Assembly: GCA_903833215.1 (NCBI GenBank)
Contig: CAILEM010000080.1
Coordinates: forward strand, 26,890 to 90,889
DNA: 64,000 nt
Reading direction: 5' to 3'
Source of the DNA: an uncultured Armatimonadota bacterium
GTDB taxonomy: Bacteria; Armatimonadota; Fimbriimonadia; Fimbriimonadales; Fimbriimonadaceae
In this document: positions 1 through 9,189 of the stretch, piece after piece
Layout: each line of letters opens with the position of its first letter
Numbering within the stretch: the first letter of the stretch is position 1
Position numbers and translations under genes: made by a program
The notes under the pieces: model-generated
Told to the model about the DNA's origin: nothing
The model's database searches: none
Seen by the model: the letters and a program-made list of their open reading frames with translations, nothing else

Positions 1-1764
1 CGAATGGACGTCCTTGCGCCAATGGGGCATGAACCAGCCCATGCGCAAATAGTTGCCAAGAAGAAGTGCGATGTCCAAGTCACTTAGGAATCGAGACCGG
101 CGAGCATAAGTGAGAGCGGGAAGAAGAGTCGTGCGGTCATCTTCGTCATCGGGCACATCACGGTAATCCGTACAGTCGAAGTAGTTGAGACAAGTCGCGA
201 GTGAGTTCCCAGGTGCGCTCACTACCTGATTTTTGTGCAGGCTCGTAATCTTGCTTCGAGTCACATAGAGGAGGTCTAGGAAGGAGGGCTCATCCAATAC
301 GGTTGGGAGGCGTTTAGGCGGGATGGGATTGACGATCCCAAAGGGTGGTTTGACTGCCTTGTCGTTCCAAGTCACGTGCGCATTGGCAAGACGTTGGCCA
401 TGTTTCTTTGTCCTCATCGGGAAGGAAAATGCGTTGGCGAGGCTGGAGATACATCGAACGACGACATCACCTTCATTTGAAAACAGATGCGCCTCCCGAA
501 ACCGATGAATCGATGCGGCGAGGAAATTCGCCCTTCCTGACATCAATGCTTCGGCCGGTATGTCTGGGGAAACAAGAACCATATTGCCGAGTTGCAGCCT
601 TTTTCCGACATTGGAGGTTGGTTTGCCGTGTTCTCCCGTGTCTAGGTTTGCCATGGAGTGTTGATCGAAAACATCCGTGAGAATACGAACCGAGCCTGTG
701 ACAACCAATGCCCCCATGCTGTGTCCGATGAGCGAAAGTGAGATTCGCCGATCCGGCAGCCCGCTTGCCGTCAACTGGCGATCGAGTTCAGCATCAAGGT
801 GACGAACAAACTCGACGAGGTCGGGGACACCAAAGTGTTCAGCCCGATACGCATCTCGAAAGTAGACCAAACCACGAAAGAGGATGACGACGATCGGCAA
901 GGTTAAGAGGAGGCCGCCAATCAGGATGGGTGTGAATACGATAAATTCTGAAGCGACATTCTTCAAGTGGGATAAATGCCGAAGTAGACCGGTCCAATTG
1001 AGTGGTTCGATTTTGCCGATGTAAGGCTCAATTCCTTTGAAGTAGTGATTTAGACCAACGGTTTCGGAGTGAAAAATCAGCCAGATCATCGTGATTAAGC
1101 AAAGGAAGACTAACGTCAGGGGAGGCGTACTACTGGGACCGTCAGAAGATGCTTTCTCACCAGACTTGAAAGTTCGCTTGGCAGCTTTGGCATCGTCAGA
1201 AAGCTTCCAAAGCGACGCGACGCATCCCAAGAGTGCACCTAGGGCAATCACCCACCACAGAATTCTTGCGAACAATTGCCACCCCCAGCCATCAGTACGG
1301 GCGAGCTTTTCCAGAAACAATCCAGCGAACAGCATCCCGAATGAGAAAGCCGTCAGAAATGCAGCCGGCCCAGGAAGTGCCTTGAAGCTCGATGAAATGG
1401 TGCTGCCCATCGCCTCACCCGGCCATCGATACCCGACATAGAGCAATCGGTCGCCGCCAAATTGTCGATAGTGGTCCCACGCTTGGCCATAACGGGTGTA
1501 GACGACCTTGTCTGGGTTGTTGAAACCATGGACCTGCACCACCACCGAGAGCTCCTCCTTATCGTGTGCCTTGGCAACCAGGTGAGCACATGCCTGCTCA
1601 AGACATTGGGTGCTCGTTGGACTGGAAGTTTCTACCAACGGAGTCGCGATCGGTGTGACAAGCCCATCTTCCACATTCAGGGGTGCGGTGCTTTCCACCA
1701 AAAGCCCAAATGGGCCACTTTTCACCATATCTCGAAGGAGGCGGATTGAGAGTAATGCTGGCAT
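1..1764 (-). CDS. Alpha/beta-hydrolase-fold membrane protein, C-terminus runs off the left edge (absent from ORF track because its stop is outside the window)
   Basis: Read by hand on minus strand from ATG at 1764: MPALLSIRLLRDMVKSGPFGLLVESTAPL...VVVQVHGFNNPDKVVYTRYG...RLLYVGYRWPGE...(4 hydrophobic segments)...SLSLIGHSMGALVVTGSV...; frame open to position 1; HGFN oxyanion and GHSMG nucleophile-elbow motifs. Confidence 0.8.
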   Translation of the reverse strand, partial: MPALLSIRLLRDMVKSGPFGLLVESTAPLNVEDGLVTPIATPLVETSSPTSTQCLEQACAHLVAKAHDKEELSVVVQVHGFNNPDKVVYTRYGQAWDHYRQFGGDRLLYVGYRWPGEAMGSTISSSFKALPGPAAFLTAFSFGMLFAGLFLEKLARTDGWGWQLFARILWWVIALGALLGCVASLWKLSDDAKAAKRTFKSGEKASSDGPSSTPPLTLVFLCLITMIWLIFHSETVGLNHYFKGIEPYIGKIEPLNWTGLLRHLSHLKNVASEFIVFTPILIGGLLLTLPIVVILFRGLVYFRDAYRAEHFGVPDLVEFVRHLDAELDRQLTASGLPDRRISLSLIGHSMGALVVTGSVRILTDVFDQHSMANLDTGEHGKPTSNVGKRLQLGNMVLVSPDIPAEALMSGRANFLAASIHRFREAHLFSNEGDVVVRCISSLANAFSFPMRTKKHGQRLANAHVTWNDKAVKPPFGIVNPIPPKRLPTVLDEPSFLDLLYVTRSKITSLHKNQVVSAPGNSLATCLNYFDCTDYRDVPDDEDDRTTLLPALTYARRSRFLSDLDIALLLGNYLRMGWFMPHWRKDVHS

Positions 1765-1966
1765 GGTTGGTTTTCCTCTGCATTGCCGTAACGCGATAAT
1801 TTGGAAGGCGTTCGTCAATTGAAGTGATTAACAAGGATTAGCAACGAAATCTAACAGGGTGATCGAGCTTTTGCAAAGAAAAACCGGAATTACACCGAAG
1901 CTGCACTTCGGAATCGCAGCAGGCTAGGAACCAAATGTGCTTCACTGAGGCCGACAAATCCCAACC

Positions 1967-2065
1967 ATGGAACTCATCTATGCCTCCGCTGTTCAGTTGG
2001 GTGAAGCCATTAGCTGAAAGCCCCTATCTGACATATTCGTGATGTCAATTCAAAACAGAATGCCC
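1967..2065 (+). pseudogene. Decayed fragment of the amidase 5' end (partial duplicate of 4441-4563)
   Basis: 'catctatgcctccgctgttcagttgggtgaagccatt' vs amidase 'catctatgcctccgctgtccaggtgggtgaagccatt' (2 mismatches), then a deletion, then 'attcgtgatgtcaattcaaaacagaatgcc' vs 'attcgcgatgtcaatccaaagttgaatgcc'; frame stops after 16 codons. Confidence 0.75.
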
Positions 2066-2081
2066 TAGCAAGAATGGAAGA

Positions 2082-2108
2082 GCCCAGAGCCATGCGAATG
2101 CTCTGGGC
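2082..2108 (-). terminator. Hairpin, probable terminator of the 2140-4083 operon
   Basis: gcccagagc / gctctgggc perfect 9-bp inverted repeat just beyond the last stop codon. Confidence 0.55.
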
Positions 2109-2139
2109 CACCTTTTACTGGCCAGCTCAGTTAGTTATC

Positions 2140-2435
2140 TTAGGGGCAGCATCTTCCGGCGATGTACTGAGGTCCAGTGACAGTGCCGTCGCATGTCTGG
2201 GCATGCCCGCTCGCGTCGATGTAGCTGTATTCGGGCGCAAAGTAGTAAGCAATTTTTGGTTTACCGCTATTACATAGATTAACCATGTCACAGCAGTTAC
2301 AGTAATCATTCACCAACAAAGGATCCTTGTTTTGACTACCGCATGTGGGAAGTTTGGCGAAGGGCATGCTGCTAGAGCAAGTGCGATTGGTAGGATGCCA
2401 CAAATGGCGCAGAACAAGAGACGAGTTTTCATCAT
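2140..2435 (-). CDS. Small secreted Cys-rich protein with an apparent frameshift between signal peptide and mature domain
   Basis: ATG at 2435 with upstream GGAG gives MMKTRLLFCAICGILPIALALAACPSPNFP (signal-peptide-like); the other frame gives ...TCGSQNKDPLLVNDYCNCCDMVNLCNSGKPKIAYYFAPEYSYIDASGHAQTCDGTVTGPQYIAGRCCP*, with 8 Cys. Confidence 0.5.
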
Positions 2436-2467
2436 AAGTATCTCCGGCTTCCTTTTACGTGAAGCGA

Positions 2468-3037
2468 TTACAGGTTATCGAATCCGAGTTCAAGAGCACA
2501 TATCGGCTTTGCCGTGAAAGTAAAGATCGGCACGTATGCGGATGACGGAACCTTTTGAATTTGCCCACCCTCGCGGGCAAACAAGTAAAAGCTCTCCTGT
2601 CCAGTTGCTGCCGATCGTTCCGAGGCGTGGTTAAGATCCCAGATAAGTGGGAAATCCGACTGCCGAGTCTCACGACATTGCTCGTATTCAGTCTTGAAAC
2701 GCAAAGTTTTGGCCACATCACCAATCACGACGGGAGCAGATCCGTTGAGGGGATAGTCTGTTGAGACCTTGGATGATGTTTGGGCCGGGCATCGTAGGCG
2801 AGTGCCACCAAGGTAGGTGGAATTGAGAGCGTTTTGATTTTGCGCTGGTGGATAGGCCCCGTTATCGTCTCGGTACAGTTGCATAGCTACGTAAAGCTGA
2901 TGTAGGTTCGATACGCAAACGGTCTTATTTGCACCGCCCTTTGCAGACCCAAATACCGGGAACAAGAACGCAGCCAAAATACCGAGAATCACGATAACGA
3001 CGAGAACCTCAGTTAGTGTGAAGCCCTTTCTCAATGA
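2468..3037 (-). CDS. Type II/IV pseudopilin-like protein (prepilin N-terminal cleavage/methylation motif)
   Basis: LRKGFTLTEVLVVIVILGILAAFLFPVFGSAKGGANKTVCVSNLHQLYVAMQLYRDDNGAYPP; start approximate (TTG near 3037; ORF extends to 3097). Confidence 0.85.
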   Translation of the reverse strand, partial: SLRKGFTLTEVLVVIVILGILAAFLFPVFGSAKGGANKTVCVSNLHQLYVAMQLYRDDNGAYPPAQNQNALNSTYLGGTRLRCPAQTSSKVSTDYPLNGSAPVVIGDVAKTLRFKTEYEQCRETRQSDFPLIWDLNHASERSAATGQESFYLFAREGGQIQKVPSSAYVPIFTFTAKPICALELGFDNL

Positions 3038-3623
3038 GCACCTCCGAGCGGACAAGCCAGAACCAAAAACCAGTAAGCAACAGCGTAACCGCACCAATCG
3101 CTAGGTGCAGTGTAGGAGCAAAAATCGAGTCAAACGGCCATAGCCACGAAGCCGCCATGTCTAGTAATCCGCATGTGCCTAGCGCGCCAAGAAAGCGAAT
3201 GTCATCAGGATATGGCTTGCTCAGGAACGATTCCCGACGAGCCGTGCACCAAGTTATCCCGAGTACGACGCCGATACATGCAGGTAGCATCCATGGCTGT
3301 TGAGACATGTGCCAATAATCAAGCGTTCCTTGCCAGACCCATGGGCCGCGGAATCGAGTCATGATTAAGTAGCTAAGGACGAGTGATGAAAGTCCGATGA
3401 CCCATGATCGCTTTCCTAATCTAGCCGCCACGGTTACAACCCAGAATGTCGCGGGAGCAAATAGGAAGTGGCCATACATCACTAACCATCGACTATCAGA
3501 ACCCAAAACCCAACGCTGCAAGCCAAAAAGCAACATAAATATATCGAGCGCAGTCAGTGCAATGAAGGGTGCTGCCATAACAGCAATACTGCCTCTTGAT
3601 TCAGTTTCGTGTTCTGCTCGCAT
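3009..3623 (-). CDS. Multi-pass membrane protein of unknown function
   Basis: 204-aa ORF with several hydrophobic segments; overlaps flanking genes of the same strand. Confidence 0.65.
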   Translation of the reverse strand: MRAEHETESRGSIAVMAAPFIALTALDIFMLLFGLQRWVLGSDSRWLVMYGHFLFAPATFWVVTVAARLGKRSWVIGLSSLVLSYLIMTRFRGPWVWQGTLDYWHMSQQPWMLPACIGVVLGITWCTARRESFLSKPYPDDIRFLGALGTCGLLDMAASWLWPFDSIFAPTLHLAIGAVTLLLTGFWFWLVRSEVLIEKGLHTN

Positions 3624-4083
3624 AGAAATCGTTTAGAACCGCTGGCCATAAATCCAATTTCTGCTGCATGAAACAGAGCTTTCCGTATCGATCAAATACG
3701 TACAGCCTCGGTGCAAATGCAACGTGAAGAGATCTAGTAAGGCTGGGTGACAATGTCCTCACAGAAGCACCATACGAATGGGCAATTCGCTCCACAAGGG
3801 CGTCGCTCGGTTGAGGCGAAAGAAGGACAATATCATCAACTCCCCGTACAGTCTCGGATACCGTGGGAAAGTTATTCGTACATTCACCTCAGTCAGTTAG
3901 AATGATCAGGGCTGTACTTCGACCGTTGCGCACAAGGCCGACCGGCCCTTTTTGCCCAAGCTCGGGTTCAGATGTTCCTTCAAGTACATATGACCGTCGA
4001 TGGTCAGGCTTTATGTATCCTGCTTGGATTTTGGAAACGATAGGGCCGAGCATTAGAGTGCTCAGTAGGCATGCCCCAAACAT
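3601..4083 (-). CDS. Thioredoxin/TlpA-like membrane-anchored protein with in-frame TGA (3891-3889) at the first position of a (U/*)GEC motif
   Basis: ATG at 4083: MFGACLLSTLMLGPIVSKI...STALIILTD[TGA]GECTNNFPTVSETVRGVDDIVLLS...LHVAFAPRLYVFDRYGKLCFMQQKLDLW...; both halves are in the same frame with no other stop. Confidence 0.65.
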
Positions 4084-4427
4084 TATTAGGGCTGAAATTT
4101 CATATTTTAGGACTCCCCCTCGTCCAAAGTTGGATACGGATGGAGGACAAGCATTGTTTACGAAGCAACGTTGATCCTGATGACGGTTAAACACTTTAAC
4201 GCATTATATACGGTGATTTGCGGAATGCCAAAAAATTTCTATTTATTTTTAGAGGTGCTCGCTTTAAATTCATTCTTTCGATTATGCGGGTTCATCGTTG
4301 AATGTCCAGCGTCTGCAGCCGATGGCTTTGTCGGAGTCTATTGTTCGATACTTTTTCGCCGCTGGTGGCGCCGAATTGTTAATGAGTCGGAAGGCTTGCA
4401 AGCGGTATCCTAGTCTGAATCCAAGTA

Positions 4428-5741
4428 ATGCCTGTGGCCGACATCATCTATGCCTCCGCTGTCCAGGTGGGTGAAGCCATTCGGAAGAAGCAAGTTTCCT
4501 CGCTTGAGGTAACAGAGGCCCATCTCGACCGCATTCGCGATGTCAATCCAAAGTTGAATGCCGTCTTCTATCTGGCCGAGGAAGCGGCACGCCAAGCGGC
4601 GCAAAAGGCGGACGACGAATTGGCACGAGGAATCTGGCGCAGCCCGTTGCACGGGGTTCCTTTCACCGTGAAGGATTGGATTGAAGTTGCGGGAATGCCG
4701 TGCGTCGCGAACGACGAGAAGTACCGAAACCACGTGCCCACCCAAGACGCGACGGCTGTCGCCCGAATGATCGAAGCTGGCTGCGTCCTCCTCGGCAAGA
4801 CCAGCGTGATCGAGGATTCCAAAGTCTACGGTCCCACCCATAACCCGTACCGGTTGGACTACAGTCCGAGTGGAAGCAGCAGTGGCGAAGCTGCGATCAT
4901 TGCTGCGGGTGGCTCCCCATTGGGTCTTGGTAGCGACTCCGGTGGCAGCATCCGAGATCCGGCTCACTGCTGTGGCATCGCCGGGCTGAGACCCACAACG
5001 GGACGAGTTCCAGTCACGGGCCACTTACCGCGGATCACCACGTTGGTTGATCCGCGCACCGTCATCGGACCAATGGCGCGATTCGTCGAAGACCTCGATG
5101 TTTGCCTCAGGATCATTTCCGGTGTTGACTGGCGGGACGCCAGCGTTGTGCCGATGCCCATCGAGGATTGGAAGCAGGTGAACCCTCGCGAACTGCGAGG
5201 AGCCTTCTACTCGCACTACCCAGGCGCCGAACCTTCCCCTGATTGTGGTCGGGTCACCCGGTCCACCGCGCAGTTCCTCGTAGATTCAGGCATTGAGGTG
5301 ACTGAGGCGAGCCCCAATCGCGTGGAGGAGTATTGGACCATTACCCAGGATTACTGGAGTCGAGCTGGATCTGAGGATCTCAGTGAAGAGTGGATGCCTT
5401 TGACGGACGGAAGAATGTCCGGCCTCGAGGTTGAACATCATCTTTTCCAGTGGGACCGATATCGTCGCTCGCTGATCAAGTTCATGGAGCAGTACGACTT
5501 CATCTTGACGCCGGTGGCTGAGTTTCCCGCGCGAAAACTCGGAAGCGACGGCTGTGTTTCGTTCTGTTTGCCATACAGCCTGGTCGGATACCCATGTGTT
5601 GTCGTCCGAGCGGGAAGTGCTGCTGACGGGATGCCGGTTGGTGTCCAGGTTGTGGCACGTCCTTGGCGAGAAGATGTAGCCCTGGCGGTAGCAAAGCTGA
5701 TCGAATCCGGGTTAGGCGGCTGGCAAAAGCCACCCCTTTAG
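4428..5741 (+). CDS. Amidase (amidase signature family)
   Basis: SGSSSGEAAIIAAGGSPLGLGSDSGGSIRDPAHCCGIAGLRPTTGRVP signature. Confidence 0.92.
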   Translation: MPVADIIYASAVQVGEAIRKKQVSSLEVTEAHLDRIRDVNPKLNAVFYLAEEAARQAAQKADDELARGIWRSPLHGVPFTVKDWIEVAGMPCVANDEKYRNHVPTQDATAVARMIEAGCVLLGKTSVIEDSKVYGPTHNPYRLDYSPSGSSSGEAAIIAAGGSPLGLGSDSGGSIRDPAHCCGIAGLRPTTGRVPVTGHLPRITTLVDPRTVIGPMARFVEDLDVCLRIISGVDWRDASVVPMPIEDWKQVNPRELRGAFYSHYPGAEPSPDCGRVTRSTAQFLVDSGIEVTEASPNRVEEYWTITQDYWSRAGSEDLSEEWMPLTDGRMSGLEVEHHLFQWDRYRRSLIKFMEQYDFILTPVAEFPARKLGSDGCVSFCLPYSLVGYPCVVVRAGSAADGMPVGVQVVARPWREDVALAVAKLIESGLGGWQKPPL

Positions 5742-5756
5742 GCTAACTTACGATTC

Positions 5757-6347
5757 CTAATGGGCACGTTTCGCCAATTTTTGAATCTGAGGCAAAAGAA
5801 CTTTGAGCAGGTTGCAGGTTTCAACGTCGGAACGCAAATCTGCCGAGATTTGTTTCTTAGTGTCTAAAACCGTCGTTTTGAGAGACTTTTCCCGTAATAG
5901 TCCGATTTGAACCCATATTCTCCCACTCAGAACATCTGTCTCAAGGTATCTGGGTTGAGCCACGTAGTGAATTCTGAAACCCTTCCTTTCGAATTCAGGG
6001 AGCGAGATGGGAACTGCCGCTCCTTGCCGACCCCAGTCTCGATCGTGGACGACTTTGGAGAGGTCTGTTCCCCTTGGGAATGAAACGGCGTCGACAGTCA
6101 AACGGCGAATTCCATCTGAGTAGGATTTCCTCGCAAGAATCGTTCCCCCATGAGACGCAAGAGGAAATGTGCCGACTTCTTCCCTAAACCTCTTCAATGC
6201 GGGAAGCTTTCCAAGGTCATCAAACGGACCCGAAGTCAGTACTCCGAAGACCCCTAGAACGAGCAGAATAGCTGGCATAAGTTCAACCTCAAATGCGGAA
6301 GATTGAAATTCAGGTTCAGGAGCCATGATTGAGTGGCAGTAACCCAA
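5757..6347 (-). CDS. Hypothetical secreted protein
   Basis: 196-aa ORF, hydrophobic segment LMPAILLVLGVFGVL near N-terminus. Confidence 0.5.
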   Translation of the reverse strand: MGYCHSIMAPEPEFQSSAFEVELMPAILLVLGVFGVLTSGPFDDLGKLPALKRFREEVGTFPLASHGGTILARKSYSDGIRRLTVDAVSFPRGTDLSKVVHDRDWGRQGAAVPISLPEFERKGFRIHYVAQPRYLETDVLSGRIWVQIGLLREKSLKTTVLDTKKQISADLRSDVETCNLLKVLLPQIQKLAKRAH

Positions 6348-6702
6348 GAATTCTCCCTGTCATCATTTTGACGGCTATGCATGCCGAGCATTTCGCTTGC
6401 CATCCTTGAAAAACGAACTCTTCAGTGAACGGAGAGATTTCAGAGACATCCTGCGGATCAAAACTCGGGCATCCTCAGAGTTTGTTGCATCGATCGAGCA
6501 ACTTGCAGAGGTGGTCATTGCTTCATGAGGCGCATTTTTGCAGAAGGTTCCATTGTGATAGCAAAATCTTTGCTGAATAAGCGCCTAAATGTATTGTCGG
6601 TCTCTTGCCATGCAACAGACCGTATTTATCAGTGTTCCTCCGATGCTTGGAGAGGCCAAGGGGAATTGCCTGATGGATTTCGTTGCCGAATGAATCATAA
6701 CC

Positions 6703-9189
6703 ATGAGCACTCTCCGTAAACCGTATTCCAATGTCGCGCGACGCAGATTGGCGTTCACGCTACTCTGGGTCCTTCTTAGCGGCATCCTTCCCGGGCTGAT
6801 CTATGCGTACGGATTGCCACTCGACGGAACCAGCGGTACACAGTTCTGGTCTATGAACCGAGCCATCGTCAGAGGTTTTGGCGACTACGGAATTGAAAGT
6901 GACATTGGATCACTAACAAGCGAACCTTTCGGCCTTTCGAGCTTGACCATAAGTCCAGACGTTGTTTATGGAGGGTACTCCTCGACGGGGACGGCGACCC
7001 TTTCTGCTCCAGCCCCGGCAGGTGGATCGGTCATTATGCTTTCGTCGACTACCTCGCTAGCCACCATTCCAGCGTCCGTTACAGTCCCCTCCGGTCAGTC
7101 TTCGATCTCTTTTTCAATAGTCACAAAAGCGGTGGCAAGCTCGACATCCGCTACGATAACGGCATCCCAAGGGCGATCCACATTCTCTGCCTCATTGTCC
7201 ATTCAGCCGTTACCGATAATATCGAGCGTGTCAACGTGGCCTACCACAGTCTTGGGTGCAAGTCCTTCCCTCGGAACAGTGTTGCTTTCGTCGGTAGCAC
7301 CGCCTGGCGGTTCGGTTGTCTCGCTCGGTGCCACAGGTCCAGCGGGAGTTCCTCATTCAGTCTCTGTGAGCGCGGGGTCAACGACTGCGACCTTCCCAAT
7401 AACGACACCCGCAGTTGGATCGAACGAGACCGCAACTATTTCAGCAACCTTAAGTGGCGTGACCAAAACTGCGGTGCTCACAGTCAATTTTGGCGGATTC
7501 AAATCATTGACGTTGTCTGCCTCCACTGTGTTGGGTGGAACGTCCGTAACCGGAACCGTGACTCTCGGGAGCCCGGCTCCTGCGTCGGGCATAACAGTTA
7601 GGCTAGTGTCATCTCACTACCAGCTTATCCTTCCGCCAAGTGTCACTGTAACGGCAAACAAAACATCTGCCACATTCACGGTCGTCACTAGGGCCGTAGA
7701 TCAAGTGACCGAGGTGGATGTGAATGCCTCGCTCGGCGATGTTTGGAAGAATGCAGAACTCACGCTCAATCCAGCCATTCTAAGCGGCGTTTCGATATCT
7801 CCGTCAACCGTGTTTGGTGGTTCGCCATCCGGTGGCACGGTTAAGCTGAGAGATCCAGCCCCTCCTGGAGGCACATCGGTTCATGTTTCTTCGAACAATC
7901 CTGACGTCGTGCTTAACGAAAATGTACCGATTCTCGCTGGGGAGACGACGGGTGTTTTCGGATTCAGCACCTTGGCCGTAGCCAAGGTCGAATCCGTGAC
8001 AGTTACGGCACGGCTGGGCAACGTGACGAAGACGGCACAGGTAAGCCTGACACCTTTGGGCCTTAGTTCGATCTCAGTGGATCTCGGGAGCGTCGTCGGG
8101 GGCAGCTCTGCCACAGGGAGTCTGGTGCTGTTATCGGTCGCTGGCGAAGGAGGGTTTGTGGTTACCCTGTCGTCCGACAACGCTGCTGTCGTTTTGCCCA
8201 GCACTGTAACGATTCCGTTTGCACGAGCAGGGACTTCATTTAGTTTCTCCACCAATCCCGTGTTGCACTCCACAAATGCAACGATCACCGCAACCCTCTT
8301 TGGTCTTTCCAAGACCACACGGCTAACCGTCAATCCCCCTGTTTTAGTGAGCCTGGCTCTGGCGCCAAGTGCCGTGTTCGGTGGCAGTTCATCTCAGGGC
8401 ACCGTCACACTAAGCTCAAAGGCGCCATCGGGAGGCATGCCTGTTAATCTCTCATCGAGCGGCTCAGGTGCCCACGTGCCGGCAACCATTGTCGTACCCG
8501 CAGGTACAAATTCGGCGACCTTTTATGTGACCACGTCAAATGTCACCTCTGTGACAACGCCAACGATATCCGCTACACAAGGTGGCATAACAGTTTCGCA
8601 GCCCTTGACAATCGACCCTGCCTCGTCTTTTCGATTTACTGTCGCGCCGGCATCGGTCGTTGGTGGTGCAACATTGATCGGAAGCCTTACCCTGGGGAGC
8701 CCAGCGCCTGCCAGCGGAATGACGATCACCCTCGGGTCCAATAGGAACGATGTCAAGGTTCCTGGTTCAGTGACGTTCACGGCTGGGCAGACATCTGCCA
8801 ACTTCACGGTTACAACCTCTCTCGTAGGGTCATCCGAATCGGCGACGATTACCGCCACATCAGGAAATATTACGAGATCGGCATCAATCACCCTGAATCC
8901 TGCGATCCTCAGCGGTTTCTCTCTCTCCGCATCCAGTGTTGCGGGTGGCAACTCGGTTACCGGCAAGGTGACCCTTTCTGCCCCAGCTCCTGTCGGTGGT
9001 TCCACCGTCAACCTGTCGATCTCTGATCCCGCGGGATCTGTGCCTGTGACCATCACCGTTCCCGCCGGTGCGACTTCTGCGACTTTTACCGTTTCTACCA
9101 GGGTGGTCACGGCGAACGTCTCTGCCACCATCACCGCGAACCAAGGGCACTCCACATTCACCGCTGGGTTGTTCATCCACAATCCATAG
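6703..9189 (+). CDS. Secreted repeat protein with about 8 Ig-like/PAPxGG repeats
   Basis: Signal-like N-terminus and tandem units such as LSGVSISPSTVFGGSPSGGTVKLRDPAPPGG...; long open frame. Confidence 0.8.
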   Translation: MSTLRKPYSNVARRRLAFTLLWVLLSGILPGLIYAYGLPLDGTSGTQFWSMNRAIVRGFGDYGIESDIGSLTSEPFGLSSLTISPDVVYGGYSSTGTATLSAPAPAGGSVIMLSSTTSLATIPASVTVPSGQSSISFSIVTKAVASSTSATITASQGRSTFSASLSIQPLPIISSVSTWPTTVLGASPSLGTVLLSSVAPPGGSVVSLGATGPAGVPHSVSVSAGSTTATFPITTPAVGSNETATISATLSGVTKTAVLTVNFGGFKSLTLSASTVLGGTSVTGTVTLGSPAPASGITVRLVSSHYQLILPPSVTVTANKTSATFTVVTRAVDQVTEVDVNASLGDVWKNAELTLNPAILSGVSISPSTVFGGSPSGGTVKLRDPAPPGGTSVHVSSNNPDVVLNENVPILAGETTGVFGFSTLAVAKVESVTVTARLGNVTKTAQVSLTPLGLSSISVDLGSVVGGSSATGSLVLLSVAGEGGFVVTLSSDNAAVVLPSTVTIPFARAGTSFSFSTNPVLHSTNATITATLFGLSKTTRLTVNPPVLVSLALAPSAVFGGSSSQGTVTLSSKAPSGGMPVNLSSSGSGAHVPATIVVPAGTNSATFYVTTSNVTSVTTPTISATQGGITVSQPLTIDPASSFRFTVAPASVVGGATLIGSLTLGSPAPASGMTITLGSNRNDVKVPGSVTFTAGQTSANFTVTTSLVGSSESATITATSGNITRSASITLNPAILSGFSLSASSVAGGNSVTGKVTLSAPAPVGGSTVNLSISDPAGSVPVTITVPAGATSATFTVSTRVVTANVSATITANQGHSTFTAGLFIHNP

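Follow-up and report, generated by a model that had tools for sequence, protein, structure and literature searches.

Membrane-anchored oxidoreductases of the TlpA/ResA/DsbE type possess an N-terminal membrane anchor, a CxxC motif following a beta strand and a conserved proline later in the chain. Bacterial selenocysteine (Sec) redoxins with a UxxC active site carry a TGA, in frame, in place of the first Cys codon of the CxxC motif, and the frame is open beyond it. Dedicated thiol-redox pairs such as MauD/MauE, a thioredoxin-like protein adjoining a membrane protein, act on a cysteine-rich exported protein. We analysed a locus comparable to each of these, located in a 64-kb stretch of DNA (the window) from an uncultured Armatimonadota bacterium. 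With the TlpA/ResA/DsbE oxidoreductases its first gene shares the anchor, the motif after the beta strand, the later proline (within F-x-P-R-x-Y) and Foldseek matches to DsbE, ResA and Etrx1; it differs in having TGA as the first Cys codon and in belonging to a family too divergent for most Pfam and NCBIfam models. It has the TGA and the open frame of the Sec redoxins, whereas the window genome has no detectable SelA, SelB, SelD or tRNA-Sec, none of the homologues found carries Sec, and both the gene and its cluster show further apparent damage. As in MauD/MauE, the thioredoxin-like protein adjoins a membrane protein and a Cys-rich exported protein belongs to the cluster, but MauE/DoxX models do not match the membrane protein here and the cluster includes a prepilin gene. 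We consider it very probable that the first gene, for a thioredoxin-like thiol oxidoreductase anchored in the membrane, has recently become a nonsense allele and that its cluster is undergoing decay in this genome.

A redoxin frame interrupted at its first active-site cysteine

On the minus strand, the frame running from 4194 to 3601 has a single interruption, a TGA at 3891-3889. The original prediction had described two minus-strand ORFs sharing one frame with this lone TGA between them, and had quoted the read-through protein; we found the same arrangement and obtained the same translation. The frame itself also terminates at a TGA. We built a redoxin profile from six homologues, the window sequence being excluded, and searched the whole 64 kb with it in six frames. 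The piece following the TGA (3604-3888) matched with an E value of 5e-9 and the piece preceding it (3892-4203) with an E value of 2e-6. These were the top two matches, the third-ranked one having an E value of 1.1. By this profile evidence, the two sides of the TGA are parts of one real, broken TlpA/ResA/DsbE-like redoxin gene (3601-4103, minus strand), in which a membrane anchor at the N-terminus is followed by a thioredoxin-like domain.

A structural model of the read-through protein, of moderate quality (mean pLDDT 69, pTM 0.64, built with three sequences), showed the element order beta-alpha-beta-alpha-beta-alpha-beta-beta-alpha. Foldseek matched this model to thioredoxin-like proteins, among them DsbE and ResA (probability about 1), although TM-scores were only 0.35-0.45; model and Foldseek results together indicate a thioredoxin fold. 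A sequence profile comparison with YkuV gave an E value of 0.006, and Pfam gave a weak Redoxin match in one of seven aligned family members. The predicted assignment to the thioredoxin/TlpA-type redoxins was thus borne out by the homologue profile, the YkuV match and Foldseek. The closest homologue is about 28% identical to the window redoxin. A GTDB scan with the read-through protein returned no matches. No second intact redoxin copy was found in the genome, where the only other redoxin match was weak (C154, E 7.5e-5).

Homologues were collected by whole-genome search of relatives, covering 113 genomes of the class. At the position of the TGA, the nine best homologues carry TGC or TGT, as do almost all the weaker ones; Ala or Val occupies this column in three matches that are weak and distant, and the homologue of G025 has the Cys but lacks the second Cys of the motif. 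A TGA in this column is absent from every homologue found. This includes the homologues of five Sec-capable genomes (G042, G040, G046, G030 and G044), the first three of which contribute to the nine best. The alignment therefore places the window TGA (3889-3891, minus strand; TGA-GGT-GAA-TGT) on the first Cys of the CxxC motif, as predicted; most homologues have an intact CxxC active site, which the window gene lacks at that first codon. In this column, Cys was found in nearly all homologues examined and Sec in none. A Cys-only column is compatible with Sec/Cys exchange and with nonsense mutation alike. That a TGA coincides with a redox Cys is insufficient for a selenoprotein call, since a single substitution makes TGA from TGC or TGT. 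The redoxin frame contains 18 codons one step away from TGA, three of them Cys codons, so that a mutation hitting one of the Cys codons would be no very unlikely event, and the case was singled out for study since its TGA falls on such a codon.

Selenocysteine machinery and decoding of UGA

SelD has been reported in all known selenoprotein-encoding genomes (PMC4561486). The assembly that contains the window is a draft of 6.22 Mb in 168 contigs, estimated to be 99.97% complete. No SelA was found in it with three models, and no SelB: the best SelB match, a 403-aa frame of EF-Tu type, covers the GTPase part only. The search for SelD found none, the best match covering 105 of 311 positions and scoring 30 bits where the cut-off is 125. 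No tRNA-Sec was detected either, the best candidate (46 bits) being a tRNA-Ser, compared with 66-81 bits for true tRNA-Sec in relatives. The presence of selA, selB, selC and selD, which had been proposed as a check of the selenoprotein reading, was thus contradicted for all four genes.

The same searches in 60 relatives detected SelB in 28, SelA in 29 and tRNA-Sec above 66 bits in 29, with near-complete agreement between the three. This recovery indicates that the searches work in this clade. Within the same genus, SelA, SelB and tRNA-Sec occur together in five of 19 relatives (G002, G003, G007, G009 and G016). Across the order (relatives G001-G060) the three components are distributed patchily yet concordantly, in about half of the genomes, which suggests that the Sec trait has been lost or gained repeatedly. 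The clade is able to use Sec; the window genome, as assembled, is not. In such a clade, checking the genome itself is decisive. A literature search on selenoproteins in Fimbriimonas or Armatimonadetes found nothing relevant.

Other ways of reading UGA were also considered. TGA terminates 13 of the 31 long ORFs in the window, and the 47 tRNA genes found in the genome include none with the TCA anticodon that would read UGA. We rejected a Cys or suppressor tRNA because of this missing anticodon, and a genetic code with UGA reassigned because TGA serves as a terminator and no UGA-reading tRNA was detected. The RNA following the UGA could form a hairpin of 70 nt, but its folding is no better than that of shuffled sequences (z -1.2); comparisons with shuffles downstream of the UGA gave z values of +1.15 (50-nt stretch), -1.22 and -0.04. 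No Rfam family was found in positions 1-8000 of the window at E<=1.

Apparent damage in the cluster and proposed origin of the TGA

The redoxin gene is the first of four. Behind it come genes for a membrane protein (about 200 aa), a protein of the prepilin type and a short Cys-rich protein that is exported (about 115 aa). The second gene (3009-3623, minus strand) is intact and encodes a membrane protein of 204 aa, which matched a profile built without the window with an E value of 1.7e-21. The third (2468-3034, minus strand), with a likely TTG start at 3034, encodes an intact prepilin or pseudopilin (N_methyl, E 4e-8; GspG-like N-terminal part, E 8e-14) and occupies the same position in relatives.

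The first and fourth genes both lack an intact ORF. For the redoxin, the original prediction had placed the start at 4083, where no Shine-Dalgarno sequence is visible. The sole ATG with a good Shine-Dalgarno sequence is that at 4103-4101, behind GAGGGGG (4121-4115; the whole element spans 4101-4121, minus strand). This ATG is likely the native redoxin start; it lies in a different frame from the redoxin body, and its own frame closes at a TAA (4088-4086). In relatives, the redoxin starts with M-R-R-I-S-A (G006) or V-R-I-A (G015), directly before the same segment as in the window. The out-of-frame start is likely a lesion. The fourth gene (2140-2435, minus strand) appears, from three-frame translation and alignment, to be a frameshifted remnant of a secreted Cys-rich protein gene, with its signal peptide (2435-2313) and its Cys-rich body, containing a CCD motif (2403-2143), in different frames. 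When the window was searched with a profile made from homologues only, these pieces came first and third, though with weak scores (E 0.17 and 1.7); the assignment is supported by position. The frameshift is likely a lesion, although both it and the start lesion rest on weak or short similarity. Intact neighbouring genes and a long-ORF density of 91% over the window indicate that the damage is local. Relatives carry intact copies of the redoxin gene, and the window locus has more than a single lesion, as in a pseudogene; the TGA is certain, and the out-of-frame start and the frameshifted fourth gene we infer.

We propose that one substitution would have changed the first Cys codon of the CxxC motif, TGT or TGC, into TGA. 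Translation would then halt ahead of the active site and of half of the fold. The cluster is most probably decaying in this genome, as the out-of-frame redoxin start and the frameshifted Cys-rich gene suggest; the order of these events we can only infer. Against decay, the redoxin frame is otherwise still open and recognisable, and the membrane protein and prepilin genes are intact. The otherwise open frame implies that decay began recently or is incomplete.

The two readings put forward in the original prediction were a Sec redoxin and a nonsense allele. Of these, the first did not stand, there being no sel genes in the genome and no TGA shared by the homologues found, while the second was supported, and strengthened by the additional apparent damage in the same cluster. 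A functional selenoprotein, in which SelB and tRNA-Sec would decode the UGA as Sec to give a UxxC redoxin, could draw on the place of the TGA at the redox Cys, the frame open on both sides, the hairpin that can form after the UGA, and the Sec machinery in about half of the relatives, five of the same genus among them. With SelA, SelB, SelD and tRNA-Sec all missing from an almost complete genome, a hairpin that folds no better than shuffles (also over the 50-nt stretch) and Sec in no homologue examined, we regard its probability as negligible; Sec decoding in this genome was rejected on the missing machinery. It is scarcely more probable that the codon is a fossil, left as a stranded nonsense allele when a Sec-using Fimbriimonas ancestor lost its whole Sec system. 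Patchiness of the machinery in the genus makes such a loss plausible here, but the homologues of Sec-possessing genomes have Cys in the column, and the other apparent lesions of the cluster require no Sec history. Nothing observed requires this fossil. An error of sequencing or assembly in a functional Cys gene is somewhat less improbable than either, though still unlikely: the assembly is a draft in many contigs, and the start offset adjoins short runs of A. However, the damage is concentrated in about 2 kb, the rest of the window having long intact ORFs, and such an error would need a substitution at the TGA plus indels at the other two sites. As it takes several errors, each independent of the others, in 2 kb of a sequence that is clean elsewhere, it is less economical than a nonsense allele in a decaying cluster.

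The intact cluster in related genomes

The cluster occurs in about ten related genomes of the Fimbriimonadia. It is complete in G015, which has two tandem copies, and in G042, G006, G025, G089 and G090; the membrane protein is missing from G046, and seemingly from G040 too, and in G095 and G098 the redoxin adjoins the membrane protein according to two independent profiles. The cluster loci are 2140-4103 (minus strand) in the window and L091, L092, L093, L094, L096 and L097 in relatives, with shorter versions in L095 and L098. The membrane protein, which adjoins the redoxin in relatives, is present in one copy in the window genome and belongs to no Pfam or NCBIfam family. Its sole match in a GTDB scan was in Fimbriimonas sp. 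D15.bin.35, whose sequence matches G015. The membrane protein profile proved too weakly conserved for scanning the collections. Apart from the prepilin motif, none of the cluster parts tested received a Pfam or NCBIfam name. By analogy with known pairs of a redoxin and a membrane protein, the intact cluster may encode a dedicated thiol-redox pair, whose two members would jointly form or reshuffle disulfide bonds, either in the Cys-rich protein that is exported or in the pseudopilin. This Fimbriimonadia cluster, to which the searched libraries assign no family name, may merit its own study and is more interesting than the TGA itself.

Several features were observed around the cluster. Each tandem copy in G015 has a downstream ORF, or a fragment of one, that by eye resembles DNA polymerase IV. 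In G042 and G090 an extra small thioredoxin-like gene, probably encoding a lipoprotein with a CGCxxC motif, lies upstream (L092, 5562-5936, FFCGCGGCA; L097, 5295-5702, FFCGCPECA; both minus strand). The window cluster sits between an intact amidase gene (4428-5741) on one side and an amidase remnant on the other. This remnant, a degenerate piece of the gene's 5' end (1974-2064, plus strand), aligns with 4444-4562 (plus strand) at 95% identity over 38 nt and 73% over 45 nt.
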